Positions 1,654 to 60,364 of a stretch of 64,000 nucleotides of DNA are shown here, in pieces. A model generated the notes under the pieces. The model saw nothing but the letters and a program-made list of their open reading frames with translations. It had not been told where the DNA came from and ran no database searches. The position numbers were made by a program, and so were the translations under genes. Each line of letters opens with the position of its first letter. The stretch's first letter is position 1. Origin of the DNA: Trachythela sp. YZ-2020 (Eukaryota; Cnidaria; Anthozoa; Malacalcyonacea; Clavulariidae); NCBI GenBank assembly GCA_016169945.1, contig JADLSH010000318.1:1274501-1338500 (forward strand), in the 5' to 3' direction.

Positions 1654-5851
<4,198 letters not shown>

Positions 5852-17264: not shown

Positions 17265-30770
<13,506 letters not shown>

Positions 30771-50258: not shown

Positions 50259-53200
50259 TTATACCACAGTTTCAAACATAAGCGTAGGTCGTTTGCGTCG
50301 AAATGAGGCTCGCGGTGGTTCACTTTTCTTCTTGGTTCGTGGTGGTTTCCACTTGAGCGGCCGTAAACCATTGAGAATAACAGCAACTAAACCAACCAAG
50401 TCAGCTAGAACAGCCATCCACACTCGGACAAATCCAGTAAGCGCAACAACAACAAACACAAGCTTCAGTAGAACAGACATGATAATGTTTTCAAGGATAA
50501 TTCGACGACAGAAACGGCTTAGACAGATAATTTCAGGTACTTTGAGAACACTGTTGTTCATTAAGGCTACCCCTGCGGCTTCTACAGCAAGTGCGGACCC
50601 CCCAGCAGCCATTGCTATCCCGACATCCGATGCGGCCAGAGCTGGACCATCATTCACGCCATCACCGACCATGCCAACGATTTGATTCCGTTTCTAAAAT
50701 ATACATTGAAATAACGTTAGTATTCTGTTCTATATAGTACTACACTGTTATTACAAGAAGAAAGCTGACTTTTTATTATGGATATATCTAAAACTCTCCT
50801 AGAGATCCAGTAAGATCACATCCTTTATTGATCAGTGTTACTACCAAGGAAGAACCTACTAAACTAAATTTATACTGGATATCTATATAGTACTACACTG
50901 TTATTACAAGAAGAAAGCTGACTTTACTTATACTGGATATCTAAACTGTTCTCCCTAGAGATCCAGTAAGGATCATCCTTTATTGATCCAGTGTTACTAC
51001 AGGAGGAAACCTAAACTAAACTAACTTTATTTATACTGGATAGCTCTATCAGTTCTAAACTGTTCTCCCTAGAGGTCCAGTAAGGATCATCCTTTATTGA
51101 TCCAGTGTTACTACAGGAGGAAACCTAAACTAAACCAACTTTATTTATACTGGATAGCTCTATCAGTTCAAAACTGTTCACCCTAGCCCATCTTGGTTCA
51201 GTGTTACTACAGGAGAACTGGAGTACCTGGAGAAAACCTGCGGTGTTTGATAGAGTCAAACTGGAAGCATTCTTCTCACATGTGAGTGAGGTGAAACTAT
51301 AATCAGACAACTGTATATTACAGGAATCGAACCTCGGCCACACTGCATGCATGGGGGAAAGACACATGCACTAACCACTTGTTTGGACCACTAATTTTGG
51401 ACCGATCTTACCTTTCCAAAGCAACCAAATCTTCTCTGTCTTACTTCCTGTTCTTTAACATTCGTTATCCAGTTTAATTTATCGTCCGGCTTCATGTCAG
51501 ACATACATGAGTCCAGTTTTAACTCCTTCTGTACAGCATTCGCTGTCTGCTTTGCATCACCCGTCAACATACACAGATGTACTCCGAGGTCCTGTAGCCA
51601 CGAGAGCGCGGCACGTGACTCCCAGCGGATGATATCTGCCAATGAGATCATTAGTGCCAGTTCCCCATCAACACAAACGAAGATGACGGTCTTCGCATCA
51701 GTACAGAATGATATATAGGCAGCTTCACATTTTGGAGAAAGAGTGACCCCAAGTTTTTCAAGCAATGACCGGTTCCCAACTTGGACATCATGACCCTCAA
51801 TTTTTCCTGAAATACCCTGTCCTTCCATCGTGCAGAACTCGGACACGTCCGGCAGAACATTGGAATCGGCAACGAAATCGGAGACACATTCGCCAGTGAA
51901 TTCGTTCACGACAGCGGCCGCTAACGGATGGCTTGATTTACTTTCCAAAGCTGCTGCCCAGCGAAGGACATCGCTCTCGTCATAGTTATCTGCTGGGACC
52001 TGAAAAAGGTTTTGAATAGATTAGTTTTGATAAGATTTGTAGGATAACTATCACTAGGGAAACTACATTTCAAGCGAAGGCCCTTCGTCTGGAAGTTACA
52101 GTACGTGTTACCGGGCAGTATATGGTGGTCAACCACTTCAGAACTGACACTTATAGGAGCAAGAAAAGTGAACTACATCTCCAAGTTCTATTTATTTACA
52201 ACCAAATACAAGACTTCTACATATAATGAAAGGAATTAGCATTATTTTCGCACTGTGATAACTGCAGGTTGACCACCATCTGCTGCACGATTGTGCTTAA
52301 TAGTGAAATCTACATGTACAAACATACATACTTACCAGGTCAACGACCTGAAATTTCCCTTCCGTAAGAGTTCCAGTTTTATCAAATGCTAGTAAGTTCA
52401 ACTGTCCTAAAGCTTCAAGGTAGACCCCACCCTTGATAAGAGCTCCAAGACGAGCAGCACCGTTAATACCACAAATAACGACGGTGGGTGTGGCCATAAG
52501 AAGTGCACATGGACAGGCAGTCACTAGAACAATCAGAGCCCTTTCACCCCATGTTTTTGCTCGACCGTCGTAAGCTTCTACCCCAGCCAAACCCAAGAAC
52601 AAGGGGATCAAAAACACCAGAGCGGCTACAATAATCACAAGCGGTGTATAAAACTTGGCAAATTTGTTAACCATTATCTCCGTCGGAGAGACATTCATTT
52701 GTGCGTCTTCAACCATGGCGGAAATTTTGGAAATTGTCGACGAAGTCGAACTTGATGTTGTCTCGATTTCCAAGTAGCCATTTTGAATCACAGTTCCACT
52801 GTAAGCAGGAGATTCAAGGACTTTCTCGACCGGTGTGGCCTCCCCTGATATTGAACTTTCATCTACCGAGGCTCCGCCTTTCACAACTATACCATCCAGA
52901 GGGATTAGTTCGCCCTGGCGCACGGCAATTATGGAACCTAACGTGGGAATTAGAACGCATTTATTAGAACGCACTTAATAGAATGAAGGGTTCTAAATTG
53001 GTAGATTTGCGAGTCTTTGCACATAGTGTATTTAATTGATTGCATTAACTAGGCAGTTTTCAACATATTTCAAGACCACTATCTACGCCTAGAACTAACA
53101 GTTTGAAATTGAGACTAGTGAAAAGCTATCACACGAAGGACGTGTATTTCAAGATTACTAACTACGTTGAAATTTGAAAACCAATCCCTTAAAGTCGAGA

Positions 53201-56200
53201 CTAGTGAGAATCTATCATAAAGGAGGTGCATTTGAAGACTGCTACCTACGCTGAGAACCAACTGTTTGAAGTTAAGCCAAGCTAGAATCTACTACAAAGG
53301 ACGTGTATTTCAAGACGACTAACTACACTGAGAACAAGCTGAATGAAGTTATGCCTAGCTAGAATCTACTACAAAGAACATGTATTTCAAGACCACTGCC
53401 TAAACAGAGAACCAACCGTTTGAAAACAAGTTTACATTCTTACCTATAGGAACGTTTTCTATGGGGATACATTCCCCGGTACATGCCATGACTGCCTTGG
53501 AAGGCTTGGATAACATTAGGCTAGATATGGTCTTCTGTACACGATAGAAACAATATCTTTGCAGGAACCCCGCGAGTGTGAACACGAATACCACGGCTGC
53601 GCCTTCAATCCACTCCTGAATGACCAGCGTACCTATCACGGTGATAGTAATGAGAATGTTCAAATCGATCTCCAAATTTCGCATCGCATGATAGACTTTC
53701 TTAAGGACGGGTATAATTCCGAAGCATATTTCGACAATTGAAACCCACATATACCAAGAACTGGATGAGAATGAACCTCCTAAGGCAATTGCTACGAGCA
53801 CAGCCTGTACAGCAAGGTTTGCGAGACGGATCTTGAGTGATTTAGGCAGACCTGAATAGAAACAGATGCACGTGCTCAATATTACAATTCCAGTAACATT
53901 ATATTACAGTATATATAGTATTACAGTAACATTCAAAATGTGATTTGTTCTTGGATTACATTCATTCATTTAACCAGAATAATGAAACAGGTCAGTATTT
54001 GAATTTATCGTCAAAATACCTTTCTCTATCTCAGCTTCTGACCCAGTATCAACGATGGACACTCCGAGATGTCGTTTGTTTAAGGTGGTCATCAGCGTCG
54101 TAGGGGATACCAGTTCTGCAAAGTGTGTCACGTGAACAACCCGACCAATCACATTCACACGGATATTCTCGATTCCCTGTTTTGAAAAATAATTAAATGT
54201 AGAGTGCAAGTAGAAGTAACGGTAATTCATTTTATAGATTTTTTATATAGTTACCAAGTTTATTTATTACATCCGCCTGGAGGGTATGTTTTCACCTTAG
54301 TTACAGTTTATAATATATAGCTGGTGATAATGGCCGTAAGCCAAAGACAAATCGATCAAATTTTGGTTGAATGTGTATGAAAAATCGGATGAATATTGGA
54401 TGAGAAATGTAAAACATTGCCACGCTTCTCCGCGGGCTGACATGTAAAAACATCGGTTTAAATGCTGGTTCGTTTTGGTTTAAATGCTGGTTCGTTTTAT
54501 ATCATGTATTCGAAGTCGTTTATAGTGATTTTAAAACACCTCAAAATATGTTTACAAACTCGGCCATCGTCTTGTTTTTCGGTGTTTCAAATTAATATAA
54601 TAAACTCGTGTATAATATATTGTTAAAGGTGAAGTAATACGAGCGACAAAGTTGCTGCGACTTGCCACAAAATCTGCTTTCAACGAATGTTAATTGGAAA
54701 CGTTCACGCATAAGTTACAAAACGCGAGACAACGACATTCGTCACATTTCTACTTAAATACTTAACATGCGTTGAAATCAGTTTTTGTTGCAAGTTGCAG
54801 CAATTTTGTTGCTCTTAATACTTTGTTATTTTATTGTCAAATAATTAAGTTCAATAGTTATAATAACACTAACCTCAAATTTACGTAATTCATCATGGAC
54901 GATTTGGGCTTCTTTGGGACAGCACATGTTTTGTACTCTCAGTTTAGTCGTCCGTACCACCATCTCAGCCACGTCTACCTTCGATCCGTCAGACTTCATC
55001 AAAGGTTTAAGTTCCTCGTGTGAGCCATGGGGTGCATCCCCGCAATTTGGGTCTTCACAGCAGCTCTTGCGATCTGGAGAGTCGGGCTGTGGGGTGCCTT
55101 GACAACAAGAGTCGTTACCCTGGTGATTGTCGTCGTCATGGTTGTCACGGTGATGGTGGTCGTCATGGTGATCATCATGGTGATCGTGATGATGGTGGTC
55201 ATGATGGTGATTATGGTCATGATGGTCATGATGGTTATGGTGGTGGTCATGGTGAGGATGACCATGCCTGGCATGGTGGTATTCGTGTGCATGATGGTGA
55301 TCATGGCCGCGATGTGGGTCAAACAGCTGACCTTCACGTAGCTCTTGAGTAGACAACTTAAAACAACTGGGTCTTCGTTCGTTCAGAAGACTTCCCAACC
55401 TTGCTTCGGCCAGACTCTGACTTCGTCTCACTTTACGATAAGGCACGGGAGAAACATCAAAAGCGAAATTGGATTTTATTTCAAAATTTGGAGCTTTTGC
55501 AATCTTGGTGGGAGAGTTAGGACCGGAGGAAGGATTTGCCGGCAAACTGGTAGTACGAGATAATTGTTTCAGATCATTCACACGTGATTTAGCGCAGTGA
55601 TCCTTGCTTGCCTTCTCCGAACTCTTCTTGCAACTTTTGTCATCACAACAGGGTGGATGCTTGTGGGTTTCTTCACTCAAGGTCTTCCCCTCGCATTTTT
55701 TGTCTCCACAACAAGAATCCTCAGTGTGTGAATGCTTGTGGATGTCTTCACTAGAGGTATTTCCCCCACAAGTTTTATTCTCACAGCAACTTGCCTCAGA
55801 GGAATGCGAATGCTTTGCTTCGCTTAATTTCTCCGCCCCGCAGGCCTTATCATTACAACAGCTTCCCTCGGTCGATTTTGGATGTTGGTGGCTTTCTTTC
55901 CTTGACTTCTCTGCTCCGCATTTTTTGTCCCCACAGCAACTTTCCCCGGTGTGTTTTGAATGCTTGTGTGTTTCATCCTCAGAGGCTTTCACCCCGCAGC
56001 CCTTGTCATCGCAGCAACTGGCAGCATCACTTTTCTTCGGGTCTTTTTCAACCTTCTGTTCACCCTCCCCCCTGCATGAGTTGTCCTTACAACAGCTTTT
56101 AGCAGGAGTATGGTTATGCTGTTTCACATCTCCTGGGGGGTGGGAATTACATTTCTTTTGACAACTTTCATCAGCGCAGCAACTTTGGTTAGTTTTACCT

Positions 56201-56718
56201 TGCGTGCTCCCGCGATCTTTCCCAGCGGTTTTCGTACAGCTGACGTCATCACAACATTTGTCTTTATGACCGTGTGGAGCATGGGTACCACTTTCCTCAC
56301 CATGGCCATGTGGGGCATGCGTGGCAGTTTTGTCAACTTTTGAAGGATCCTTTTCGCAAACACCAGTTTGACAACAACTGTCTACTGTTGGCGAATCGCT
56401 CTTTTTCGAACCCTCTTGCTTCTTGATTGGGCTAATATCGTCTTTATTCCCTCCATTAACCATTTTCTCCGTGTCGTCAACATCAAGACGAGGCTCAATA
56501 GGCTTGACGTAATCGGCCAGTTCCTCCTTGGTTCGGCAAGGGCAAATTTTGAGGCGAGAGCTGTCAGGTATGCCTTTCAAATCTGGCTCACTGAACAGAA
56601 ATGGATTCTCGAATCCCACTCCAGCGGTAAAGTCCGCGTCTTTAGGCAACAGACACTCGCAATCGTTTGAGCAGTCGCATATGTCGTCAGGACAACAGCC
56701 AACCTTACATGCGGGCAT
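50259..56718 (-). CDS. P1B-type Zn/Cd ATPase with long Cys/His-rich N-terminus
   Basis: This is a predicted ATP-driven heavy-metal export pump. Exons in transcript order: 56718-54874, 54176-54020, 53851-53444, 52937-52336, 51999-51412, 50693-50259; all phases fit, giving about 1344 residues. Residues 1-560 carry 12 CCxxxxC motifs (first at 8-14, last at 553-559) spaced by His-rich linkers, and 471-532 is a His/Asp tract. A heavy-metal domain follows with CCPKE at 599-603, the CCxxE form typical of Zn/Cd pumps. The core has SGEATP (834-839), the membrane CPC (945-947), phosphorylated D989 in DKTGT, the HP pair at 1028-1029, TGDAKQT, and GDGVND (1210-1215). Near the end are membrane K1277 and D1298, but the usual DxG reads DLV. 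No selenocysteine or frameshift is needed. The metal is inferred from motifs. Confidence 0.94.
50730..51390. repeat. SINE with four tandem tail units in an ATPase intron
   Basis: Between ATPase exons 5 and 6, units of about 125 bases recur four times in direct order (starting near 50765, 50880, 51020 and 51140). Each holds ATACTGGATA, CTCCCTAGAGATCCAGTAAG-like sequence and CCAGTGTTACTACAGGAGG. The array leads into a family S SINE body and its tRNA-like head (minus strand, about 51320-51385). Confidence 0.85.
55130..55310 (-). repeat. Coding CAT/GAC triplet-rich tract in the ATPase
   Basis: This stretch of exon 1 encodes the His/Asp tract. On the plus strand it is a run of ATGGTGATC-like triplets. 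It also opens long spurious frames on the other strand and frames, which are shadows. Such runs often vary in length between individuals. Confidence 0.85.
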
Positions 56719-57022: not shown

Positions 57023-57239
57023 TTACAAGGCAGCAGATGGTTGTCAACTTCAGAAATGTTGACACTTATAGGAGCAAGAAAATTAAACTATATCTCTTAA
57101 TTCTAAAAATTTGCCTTCAAATACAATACTATATATAATGAAAATAATTAACATTATTTTCTGACTCTGATAACTGCAGGTTGACCACCATCTGTTGCAC
57201 GACAGTGCTTAGTGGAACCCACCTTTAAAGAGACCATTC

Positions 57240-57605: not shown

Positions 57606-60364
57606 TTTGAGCAAATATTTCCATCTTGCGAGAAATGCTAACTAACAAACAAAACTATATATACCATATGATTAACCAACTCACCAACTACCACATAGCT
57701 AATCAGACAGCAAGTTAACTAACCTTTAGAAGCGCTCGCAGTTCGATGAGCCTGTGCCTGTATAAACCCGTTTTGCTACATTTATTGTCCCAGTGTAACC
57801 TTTCTTTTTTAACTTAACTCTTCTTTTTCTTTCTGTATATACTTTTCAATCCACCGATTAAAAGCACTGGCATAAGTGCTACAAAGCTACAGGCTGTGCA
57901 GACTATGCTGTATATTTACGAATGTTAGGTCATATACACACTGACAATGACCTGACAAGGAGTTCACATTTGGGGGTCTCCAATATATGGCTATTTCACA
58001 ATGCTATACCGGCATGAGTCTCACTCGTAAACATGTCTCGAATTTTCGCCGGTTCATTGCCAACCGTGTGAATATGGAAATGATTATGCACAGAATTTGC
58101 TAGCGAACCCTATCTTGCTACACGTGATGGGTACCACAAAGCACTATCGTACAACAGCTGGTTATTATTACCCGCAGTTATATATATCAGAGCGAGAAAA
58201 TGATGTTAATTCTACAGTAGTCTTGTATTTGGTGGCCACTAAATAGAATTGAGAGATGTAGTTTAATTTTCTTCCTCCTATAAGTGCCCGCATTTCTGAA
58301 TTTGACCACCATCTGCTGTTCTGTAACGTTTACCGTAACCCAGCAACATACCAGACAAGCCACAAGGACTTACTGAATCGATTCTATGAATAATAACCAC
58401 CACTACACCATTGAACCCAATGTTGACTTGCATCTATTGTTCAGATTTTTTACAGCTACTGAGTATCGAACTTTCTTACTCTGATAACTGCAGGTTGACT
58501 ACCACCTGCTGCACGATAGTGCTTAGTGAGAACCATCTATTATATTGCAGCTTTTGAAGATCGGTTTCATGTGTTTTGCTTTTATAACCCCATACTCATT
58601 GCAGTATTGACCAAGCATTTAAGTCTTATACACACACAAACTAACCATAATCGTGGTGCATGCATAAATAAACCCACCATGTCTATATCGTCATTGTTGC
58701 ATCTCAAAATAGTACACTGCGGACACATTGTAACACGAAATAGTACCAACGTTGTTGATATAAGCTTAAATACTTTTAAGCTGTTGTACACATTTAAGAT
58801 ACAGTTTTAATCGGAACTGAAGTTTTAATCGAACACTTTAAACCAGGCCTAGGTCGAACAAGGTCGAACACCCATGTAGATAAATGCAGGAAGTGAGACC
58901 TCGGGACCTGAGAAACATTTGCCTTAGCAACCAGATTGTGGAACATTTTCAATATATTTCACACATTCTGCACGAAAGAATCATCAGGGATCAGAGTTGC
59001 AAAACTCTAGAGTTGTCAAACAGTTCTCTATCTCCATTTTAATTGAGTCGGTGAAGTCTTCTTCACATCACACTTTCAACCTTCCTCCGGCTAGGAGTTT
59101 GCCCGCCTTTCGTGCCCGCTTTAACGCCTGCTACGCAGGTTAATACTTAGATTAATTTTGTTGAAAATTTTAAAACACGCACTAGGCAATATTGTAGGTA
59201 TGTTGAACATTTCAGTATAGGTTTGACTTCACGGGGATTGTACTAAACACTGAATAAGATCAATTACCGATCTTAAACGTGATTATTTCCTCTCACAGTA
59301 GGGTCTGAGTCTGTGTCTAAGTTGTGCAAGTCAAAGAGATTAGACCTAAACTGTCTCAGTGTGACTGTCTGCAGTGTAATTAGATCACACGAGTACTGGC
59401 GCCAATACACGTACAGTCATTAGTATAATTGTACATCATTGTATTATTAAATGCGTTAAGAAAATAGAAATATTCAAATGAATGCTATATTAAAACCACT
59501 TGTTTGGCAAGGCCTTCATAAAGTTACATAAACAAATACTTATCCAACAGACAAAAATACCAAGACACTTGCTTAGGCGTTCGGTTTCAGGCAGCAAAAT
59601 ACACACCTTGGGGTGGAATGGAAAAGGGGGCGAGAGGGTGGTGGGGGTGGGCATCAGGAGGGTGGTGGGGGTGGGCATCAGGAGGGTTTGTTCCTGTTTA
59701 AATTTTATGTCAAGAGGCATTCGGACACGACCTAACACATGCGCTATGTTTTAGGTCACTTGCATGGCCTGTGGATGAATTTTTTACACTCATTAACATA
59801 ATTTGCGAACCCTAAGTTACGCCGCAATTGCCAACTTAACACGTGTTGAATATGCGGGTACAATTAAGAGATTAATTGGAGAGGCATGTCACGCAAATTG
59901 CCGGTGCTTTTCTTTTAATTAAATTAAACTTGCGCAAGACGTATCGTAGAACCACATGTGTTTGTCATTGGAGGTCATATTTGACCCTGTAAGATCTAGA
60001 GCAATTTACTAGTATCAAGTGAAACATATATAGTTGTTTTCATCGAGGCCGACCTATTTCAAATTACCTATTGATATATTTCGTATTTGTAGATTTAATA
60101 TTGCTAACTTTGTTTGAAAGATAATATAAAGTAAATATATATGCTTATATTGCTAGCTTTGTTTGCAAGATCTTATGTAAATATATATATGAATAACATG
60201 ACATTGAAGATTAATACCTGCAGAAATTAACAATCTTGAACAAACACAACATACGTTTTCCTTTGATCAGACCAACTCCACAAAGTTTCTATACACCAAA
60301 CCACATATTAAGATTCAACCTTCCAGATTATTTGACAGCAACAAAGATATTTCTTTACACTCGT

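Follow-up and report, generated by a model that had tools for sequence, protein, structure and literature searches.

A stretch of 64,000 nucleotides from the cnidarian Trachythela sp. YZ-2020 (assembly GCA_016169945.1, contig JADLSH010000318.1, positions 1,274,501 to 1,338,500 of the forward strand; hereafter the window) contains a minus-strand gene, 56718-50259, whose six exons remain open in frame over 1344 codons and encode a P1B-type ATPase. The sequence class of this pump is well supported as P1B-2, the Zn/Cd type. Ahead of its CCxxE metal-binding domain the protein carries a long extension rich in cysteine and histidine, and it terminates in a motif resembling the ligands of PDZ domains. 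From its sequence and by analogy with characterized pumps, it is probable that this cnidarian ATPase exports Zn2+ and/or Cd2+, the N-terminal tail acting as a sensor and buffer mounted on the pump and the PDZ-type end as an anchor.

In the gene model, all five introns show GT-AG borders and the exons join in frame. The start ATG is located at 56718, with an in-frame TGA three bases before it. Exon 1 comprises 615 codons and ends in phase 0 at a GT donor, and exon 2 begins at 54176 behind a CAG acceptor. The initial annotation of this DNA had described an exon of about 600 residues with 12 CCxxxxC motifs, HxH-containing linkers, a His/Asp tract and a CCxxE domain spliced in phase, across 54874/54176, to a core with CPC and DKTGT. 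All of these elements, including both exon borders and their phase, were recovered as described; the PDZ-type C-terminus ETVV, absent from that description, has to be added. The features of the gene are distributed as follows.

54874..56718, minus strand: exon 1, residues 1-615, the Cys/His-rich extension and the first half of the CCxxE domain (open reading frame, GT donor, stop ahead of the ATG)
54020..54176, minus strand: exon 2, residues 616-667, phase 1 end, second half of the CCxxE domain (GT-AG borders, frame; joined to exon 1 in the paralogue)
53444..53851, minus strand: exon 3, first membrane helices and start of the A domain
52336..52937, minus strand: exon 4, A domain (SGEA), CPC and DKTGT
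51412..51999, minus strand: exon 5, P and N domains, including SSHPL (from residue 1026)
50259..50693, minus strand: exon 6, GDGVND (residue 1210), last helices, C-terminal tail and stop
56677..56697, minus strand: first CCxxxxC motif, residues 8-14, within the N-terminal Cys cluster MPACKVGCCPDDICDCSNDCEC (from the gene model)
55630..56376, minus strand: array of 10 CCxxxxC motifs, residues 115-363, the last nine 21-29 residues apart, with HxH in several linkers
55360..55428, minus strand: block RRSQSLAEARLGSLLNERRPSCF, residues 431-453, between the Cys array and the His tract, a putative phosphorylation region
55123..55320, minus strand: His/Asp tract, residues 467-532
55042..55062, minus strand: last CCxxxxC motif, residues 553-559
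54910..54924, minus strand: CCPKE (CCxxE) site of the HMA-like domain, residues 599-603
52507..52515, minus strand: CPC, transmembrane metal site, residues 945-947
52369..52383, minus strand: DKTGT, phosphorylation site, residues 989-993
50463..50465, minus strand: Lys1277, in the column of Lys693 of the zinc pump 4umv
50400..50402, minus strand: Asp1298, in the column of Asp714 of the zinc pump 4umv
50262..50273, minus strand: C-terminal ETVV, resembling a class-I PDZ ligand, residues 1341-1344

Sequence comparison supports the reading of exon 1 and the pump exons as a single fused gene. A paralogue on contig C259 (1504522-1512427), made of four exons and devoid of introns 1 and 2 of the window gene, has no intron at the 54874/54176 site, and its genomic DNA runs uninterrupted through TTKLRVQNICCPKEARIVQEELGKLPGINTIRVNVLGR. 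The whole fused layout also occurs in two homologues (designated, like the others, by P-numbers), namely P0001, a gene model of Dendronephthya gigantea, and P0002, a protein of 1236 residues whose source sequence of 4,812 bases is too short to hold introns as long as those of the window gene and thus probably represents a transcript. Finally, relatives from stony corals and anemones possess a Cys-rich extension at the same place but of different sequence, which lends further support to the fusion. The C259 paralogue is the one further P1B-2 gene found in the genome. Its short N-terminus contains a single CCxxxxC and 16 His, including a small run of His, and this copy lacks the PDZ-type C-terminal motif. 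No second pump copy occurs within the window. In Oculina a long and a short pump bear adjacent gene numbers (P0008 and P0071), whereas in Trachythela the short copy sits on a different contig.

With respect to the pump class, residues 574-1344 were compared with the NCBIfam models. The heavy-metal P-type model TIGR01525 scored 510 bits (cut-off 346) and the cadmium family model TIGR01512 scored 407 bits (cut-off 313.5), whereas the copper family model TIGR01511 remained at 314 bits, under its cut-off of 397. The two ZntA equivalog models NF008262 and NF033775 scored 428 and 348 bits, well under their cut-offs of 1005 and 1240. All core motifs of P1B pumps (SGE/TGE, CPx, DKTGT, HP and GDGxND) are present in the protein. 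In the alignment with 4umv, K1277 and D1298 occupy the columns of K693 and D714, both of which are at least 90% conserved among 50 pumps. The HMM cut-offs (hidden Markov models), these two residues and the tree described below agree with the initial annotation in assigning the gene to an animal pump of the Zn/Cd kind, distinct from the copper pumps. The HMA family PF00403 was not among the Pfam matches of the window protein at E values up to 0.1; the predicted fold of a homologue, P0003 (927 residues, grouping with the short copy of this genome), nevertheless points to an HMA domain of the CCxxE type. In this model, which shows a P-type core at a mean predicted local distance difference test (pLDDT) of 77.7, the CCxxE domain is predicted to adopt a beta-alpha-beta-beta-alpha-beta arrangement, with a strand at 167-174 and a helix at 180-191, residues 1-163 falling below a pLDDT of 50.

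The distribution of the family was read from two homologue lists consisting of the best 120 of 7,438 and the best 120 of 7,987 matches, the candidates scored being those that share most words with the query; for the first list the whole protein served as query and residues 576-1344 were scored. The closest relative among the matches listed is P0001 of Dendronephthya gigantea, with 92% identity over residues 576-1344, and by name the matches listed include octocorals, stony corals, anemones and Clytia. The term cnidarian-clade rows refers hereafter to 102 rows, P0001-P0103 minus P0004 (2182 residues, 35% identity), which were assigned because they rank ahead of the earliest rows of bacterial appearance; eleven of them are cnidarian by name (P0001, P0006, P0008, P0017, P0052, P0055, P0063, P0071, P0076, P0084 and P0101). 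The initial annotation, which had confined the fused pump to "this lineage", was accordingly correct in class and layout but too narrow in scope, and its reading is supported in part.

Two trees, both rooted on three copper pumps, were calculated from the window protein starting at residue 576 and from the other P-number rows trimmed to their last 820 residues. The first comprises 49 rows under LG+G4, of which 20 are cnidarian (17 of the 102, P0187, the window protein and its paralogue), and the second comprises 47 rows and 708 columns under LG+C20+F+G4, of which 18 are cnidarian (16 of the 102, the window protein and the paralogue, P0187 and P0103 being omitted). The sampled cnidarian pumps form one clade (support 100; 100/100), whose sister group consists of eight P1B-2 rows of algal, plant and dinoflagellate type (joint clade 99 and 100/99), and the prokaryotes fall outside this joint clade. 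Within the cnidarian clade, the octocorals, the anemones together with the stony corals, and a group containing Clytia are separate; the anthozoans are joined in the LG+G4 tree (93), and the deepest order is unsettled in the LG+C20+F+G4 tree. In approximately unbiased (AU) tests, grouping the cnidarians with the three copper pumps gave p=0.0047, with twelve bacteria p=1.5e-5 and with a Chloropicon pair p=0.061, values that are weakened by the choice of these groupings after a first tree was known. Both the copper grouping and the bacterial one thus disagree with the data.

As to how the gene reached the cnidarians, an old transfer from an alga into the cnidarian stem and descent from an animal ancestor appear about equally plausible. 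The transfer is favoured by the sister group of algae and plants, by the survival of the Chloropicon grouping in the AU test, and by the occurrence of no bilaterian or sponge name among the named rows of the two best-120 match lists. Against it, the best tree puts the cnidarians outside a supported algal/plant clade (100/99), from a thin sampling of eukaryotes. An algal origin would in any case be compatible with the sensor-buffer mechanism considered below.

The N-terminal extension is the most distinctive part of the protein. Residues 1-575 contain 12 CCxxxxC motifs, whereas 20,000 composition shuffles gave 0.29 on average and never more than 4; residues 1-560 comprise 47 Cys and 58 His. Between residues 155 and 363, nine of the motifs succeed one another at intervals of 21-29 residues, many of the modules reading SCCxDKxC. 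The whole protein contains 14 CC pairs including that of the CCxxE site, upstream of which 26 HxH motifs occur when overlaps are counted. At the DNA level, a stretch of 76 nucleotides is present in three copies (spacing 75 and 150) that match at 68-72%, so that the array has probably grown through tandem duplication. The fold predicted for exon 1 alone, from one sequence, reached a pLDDT of 39, which bears no reading beyond a probable disorder of the extension.

Identity within the extension is unevenly distributed among the residues. Compared with D. gigantea, 43 of 44 gap-free Cys sites are identical, against 288 of 428 residues other than Cys and His (Fisher 2.6e-6), and compared with P0002 the corresponding figures are 39 of 43 and 217 of 397 (Fisher 2.2e-6), a contrast inflated by an undefined amount since the aligner rewards matched cysteines. 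The histidines, with 38/50 identical sites in D. gigantea and 26/41 in P0002, do not differ from the remaining residues. Selection thus appears to maintain the cysteines more than the histidines. In the Cys- and His-rich extension described by the initial annotation, the cysteines are selectively conserved, whereas the histidines are conserved no better than other residues. This preference matches the situation in the tail of plant HMA4, whose di-Cys motifs, but not its His stretch, are of importance in vivo. The block RRSQSLAEARLGSLLNERRPSCF is nearly unchanged across three octocorals and possibly corresponds to a phosphorylation or docking site.

The qualification "metallothionein-like", also found in the initial annotation, holds only as an analogy. 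For the window protein, Pfam gave no metallothionein match, only E1-E2_ATPase and Hydrolase, at E values up to 0.1. Descent from metallothioneins was discarded as well, a 112-residue module query having returned one candidate and no significant match.

The cysteine array is largely a property of the long cnidarian pumps. At least 5 CC pairs occur in the extension of 58 of the 62 long (at least 900 residues) cnidarian-clade rows and in a single one of the 40 short rows, while no CC pair is found in the C-terminal tail of any of the 102 rows (0/102), nor beyond residue 599 of the window protein. As the initial annotation had recognized, the extension is thus placed at the end opposite to that of plant HMA4. 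Among 23 algal and plant rows, picked by eye and many of them unnamed, 9 have at least 2 CC pairs at the C-terminal end, some of these algal tails containing CCxxxxC itself, and one has at least 5 at the N-terminal end, five more having 3-4. The 97 other rows comprise none with at least 5 N-terminal pairs and one with at least 2 C-terminal pairs; many rows in these counts and in those of the PDZ-type ends are near-identical copies, and the 97, like the 120 other rows used for the C-terminus, include the partial Nematostella row P0187. The HxH motif occurs at most once in each cnidarian-clade row, except in the octocoral-like P0001-P0003, so that the HxH linkers and the His tract represent additions of the octocoral long form. 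An anomalous row is P0063 of Acropora millepora, whose N-terminal half is poor in Cys and whose repeat resembles the Cys repeats read in a different frame; its first 28 residues recur in P0065, P0067 and P0068, which have 47-55 Cys in that region, and an error of gene model or frame in P0063 is possible.

The C-terminal ETVV fits the pattern of class-I PDZ ligands ([S/T]-x-hydrophobic), which is conserved in the family, and is therefore predicted to be such a ligand. A C-terminus of the form [DE][ST]x[VI] terminates 44 of the 62 long and 5 of the 40 short cnidarian-clade rows and none of the 120 others, the 44 not being independent cases as many long rows are near-copies; a looser class-I pattern is found in 53/102 and 2/120 rows, respectively. 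The letters vary while the pattern is kept, with ETVV in octocorals, ESIV in anemones and ESYV in stony corals. PDZD11 is reported to influence the placing of PMCA and ATP7A (PMC9307954).

Taken together, these features suggest the following mode of action. Zn2+ and/or Cd2+ would leave the cytosol by the standard ATP-driven P1B-2 cycle, through the membrane site formed by CPC, Lys and Asp. The di-Cys and His extension ahead of the CCxxE domain would bind many metal ions. At low metal, it would hold the pump back or keep it on an internal membrane, whereas with rising metal the di-Cys sites would fill and the restraint would be released, the metal then passing to the CCxxE domain, next to the membrane site. 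The PDZ-type C-terminus would probably tether the pump to one face of a polarised cell. We infer the transported metal and its direction, the binding of metal by the tail, the gating and the anchoring from the class and the motifs of the protein and, for the role of the tail, from the yeast pump Pca1 and plant HMA4. Loading of specialised cells, another function envisaged by the initial annotation, received no support from the analysis.

Several observations weigh against this proposal, besides the preference of the aligner for cysteines and the near-copies among the rows mentioned above. Short copies of the pump, including that of this genome, lack the array, which appears dispensable for transport as such, and the PDZ-type end is missing from 18 of the 62 long rows. 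The motif of the last helix is D-L-V-G in the window pump instead of D-T-G in 4umv, and the metal site need not equal that of 4umv. The top sequence match in the PDB is 7qbz (308 bits), labelled as a cadmium pump though considered here a P1B-4 pump of the cobalt type; the zinc pump 4umv scores lower, at 271 bits. In structural comparisons by Foldseek and VIA-align, pumps for copper, zinc and cadmium/cobalt appear alongside KdpB pumps, with a copper pump ranked first; this confirms the superfamily without telling the metals apart. Lastly, TGCRCNC, presumably the core of metal-response elements, is not enriched in the window (29 occurrences versus 30.6 expected), and the listed occurrences include none in the 2 kb preceding the ATG. 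A scan for bacterial-type promoters, its model not being that of animal genes, was uninformative.

Two other functions of the extension were considered, both unlikely and to a similar degree. The extension could act as a degron switch that senses metal and marks the pump for destruction until metal is bound, without buffering or feeding it. It is Cys-rich and located at the same end of the protein as in yeast Pca1, whose mechanism is described (PMC10654040, PMC11050377), and the co-occurrence of a long and a short copy in this genome would agree with an inducible form beside a constitutive one; 12 CCxxxxC motifs, however, far exceed the sites that a switch requires. Alternatively, the extension could be a passive store, simply a buffer tethered to an otherwise ordinary pump, which would agree with the growth of the array by tandem duplication, with the variable number of CCxxxxC motifs in three octocorals (12, 11 and 6) and with the apparent disorder of exon 1. 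Nevertheless, the sites provided by each pump molecule would presumably be few relative to free thiols, and the extension is retained on the pump in 58 of the 62 long rows, which points to a function exerted there.

The known pumps closest to that of the window are the following. The D. gigantea protein P0001, named by NCBI "cadmium/zinc-transporting ATPase HMA3-like isoform X2", is an orthologue with the same N-terminal layout and the same ETVV end, differing in its 11 CCxxxxC motifs, one fewer, and a shorter His tract. Plant HMA4, a P1B-2 pump, belongs to the same Zn/Cd class and has a long tail of di-Cys motifs and His, which is C-terminal in HMA4; the window protein falls outside the HMA4 subtype. 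In Arabidopsis thaliana, the long cytosolic tail of HMA4 is described as containing 13 di-Cys pairs and a stretch of 11 His (PMC10654040). The HMA4 tail reportedly binds about 11 Zn with a KD below 10 nM, the di-Cys motifs, unlike the His stretch, being important in vivo (PMC6255694). Yeast Pca1, a P1B cadmium pump, resembles the window pump in its Cys-rich N-terminus, which binds Cd, acts as a sensor and governs its own degradation (PMC10654040, PMC11050377). The bacterial pump ZntA (4umv/4umw) shares the core, the CPC and the columns of Lys693 and Asp714, but lacks a long extension, the window pump remaining under the ZntA cut-offs given above. We know of no array of CCxxxxC and His in Pca1. 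Finally, algal P1B-2 pumps (for example P0124 of Chloropicon, P0126, P0129 and P0133) display di-Cys modules, some of them CCxxxxC, next to a P1B-2 core, yet their CC arrays are mainly C-terminal (a few also have 3-5 N-terminal pairs) and those included in the tree form a separate clade. Tentatively, and with somewhat less confidence than for the mechanism itself, it may be supposed that cnidarians kept or early acquired a P1B-2 pump, reportedly absent from the other animals studied, and equipped it with an N-terminal di-Cys array that would sense the metal and gate activity or trafficking and with a PDZ-type end that would hold it at one membrane face, independently of the arrays located mainly at the other end in plants and algae, all of them representing "transceptor" tails.

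Identification of the gene as a copper pump (ATP7/P1B-1) is very improbable. The UniRef name "P-type Cu(+) transporter" given to P0017, P0055 and P0101 and the shared CPC speak for it; among the database names of relatives, some refer to Cd/Zn pumps and some to Cu(+) transporters. The UniRef names conflict with the tree and, for P0017 and P0055, also with the NCBI name. The window protein has no GMxCxxC motif and scores under the copper family cut-off, and the genome harbours separate loci with copper-pump-like exons (CPCALGLATPTAVMVGTG) on contigs C155 and C308. In the P1B tree, which the initial annotation had proposed as a check, the window pump does not group with the copper pumps (AU p=0.0047, the group having been chosen after the first tree). 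Copper-pump identity was rejected on the HMM cut-off, the motifs and the AU test. Contig C189 matches like C155; the copper-pump-like exons of these two contigs score nearly equally and the contigs are perhaps uncollapsed haplotypes.

Bacterial contamination, a recent transfer from bacteria or the erroneous joining of two genes, for which the judgement passed in 2014 on the single Nematostella match (probable horizontal transfer or contamination, PMC3922081) could be invoked, was rejected and is the least credible explanation of all, given the five introns, the location of the locus more than 1.27 Mb along its contig in a 578-Mb assembly, the orthologues of several named cnidarians in one clade, the AU rejection of a grouping with twelve bacteria, and the junction read through in the paralogue.

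A 2023 review contains the statement that "Animals only have P1B-1", and adds that the reason why zinc pumps are dispensable in animals is not well understood (PMC10654040); this statement seems at odds with members of an entire phylum of animals. A 2014 survey reported one Me2+ ATPase from Nematostella, which it judged to be a probable transfer or contamination (PMC3922081), and the cnidarian findings speak against contamination, one of these two explanations. Beyond that survey, broad searches of the open-access literature, which are weak evidence of absence, retrieved no study of cnidarian Zn/Cd P1B pumps or of their N-termini. The 2023 review also raises the question of when eukaryotic metal pumps acquired their terminal control domains (PMC10654040), for which cnidarian and plant or algal tails, placed at opposite ends, can now be compared. 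If the arrays arose independently as supposed above, di-Cys tails would be a repeatedly evolved control device of eukaryotic Zn/Cd pumps. The pump may also have a bearing on the handling of zinc and cadmium by corals. Nematostella possesses a member of the family (P0076), and the role and the metal are directly testable there. Nematostella is amenable to gene knockout.

Around the pump gene, ten other open reading frames of the window were scanned against Pfam, and four gave a match, to DOT1, PTB/PID, enoyl-CoA hydratase and a leucine-rich repeat, consistent with an animal genome. The DOT1 histone-methylation domain lies in a long open reading frame at 1657-4980. Copies of an interspersed repeat, probably the remnant of a mobile element, are located at 52217-52299 in intron 4 and, upstream of the gene, at 57129-57211 and 58443-58525, with inverted copies nearby. 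Elsewhere in the assembly, the 298-kb contig C93 carries, at 18500-23500, an intronless P1B-type frame of 839 codons surrounded by bacterial-looking frames, and probably is a bacterial contig.

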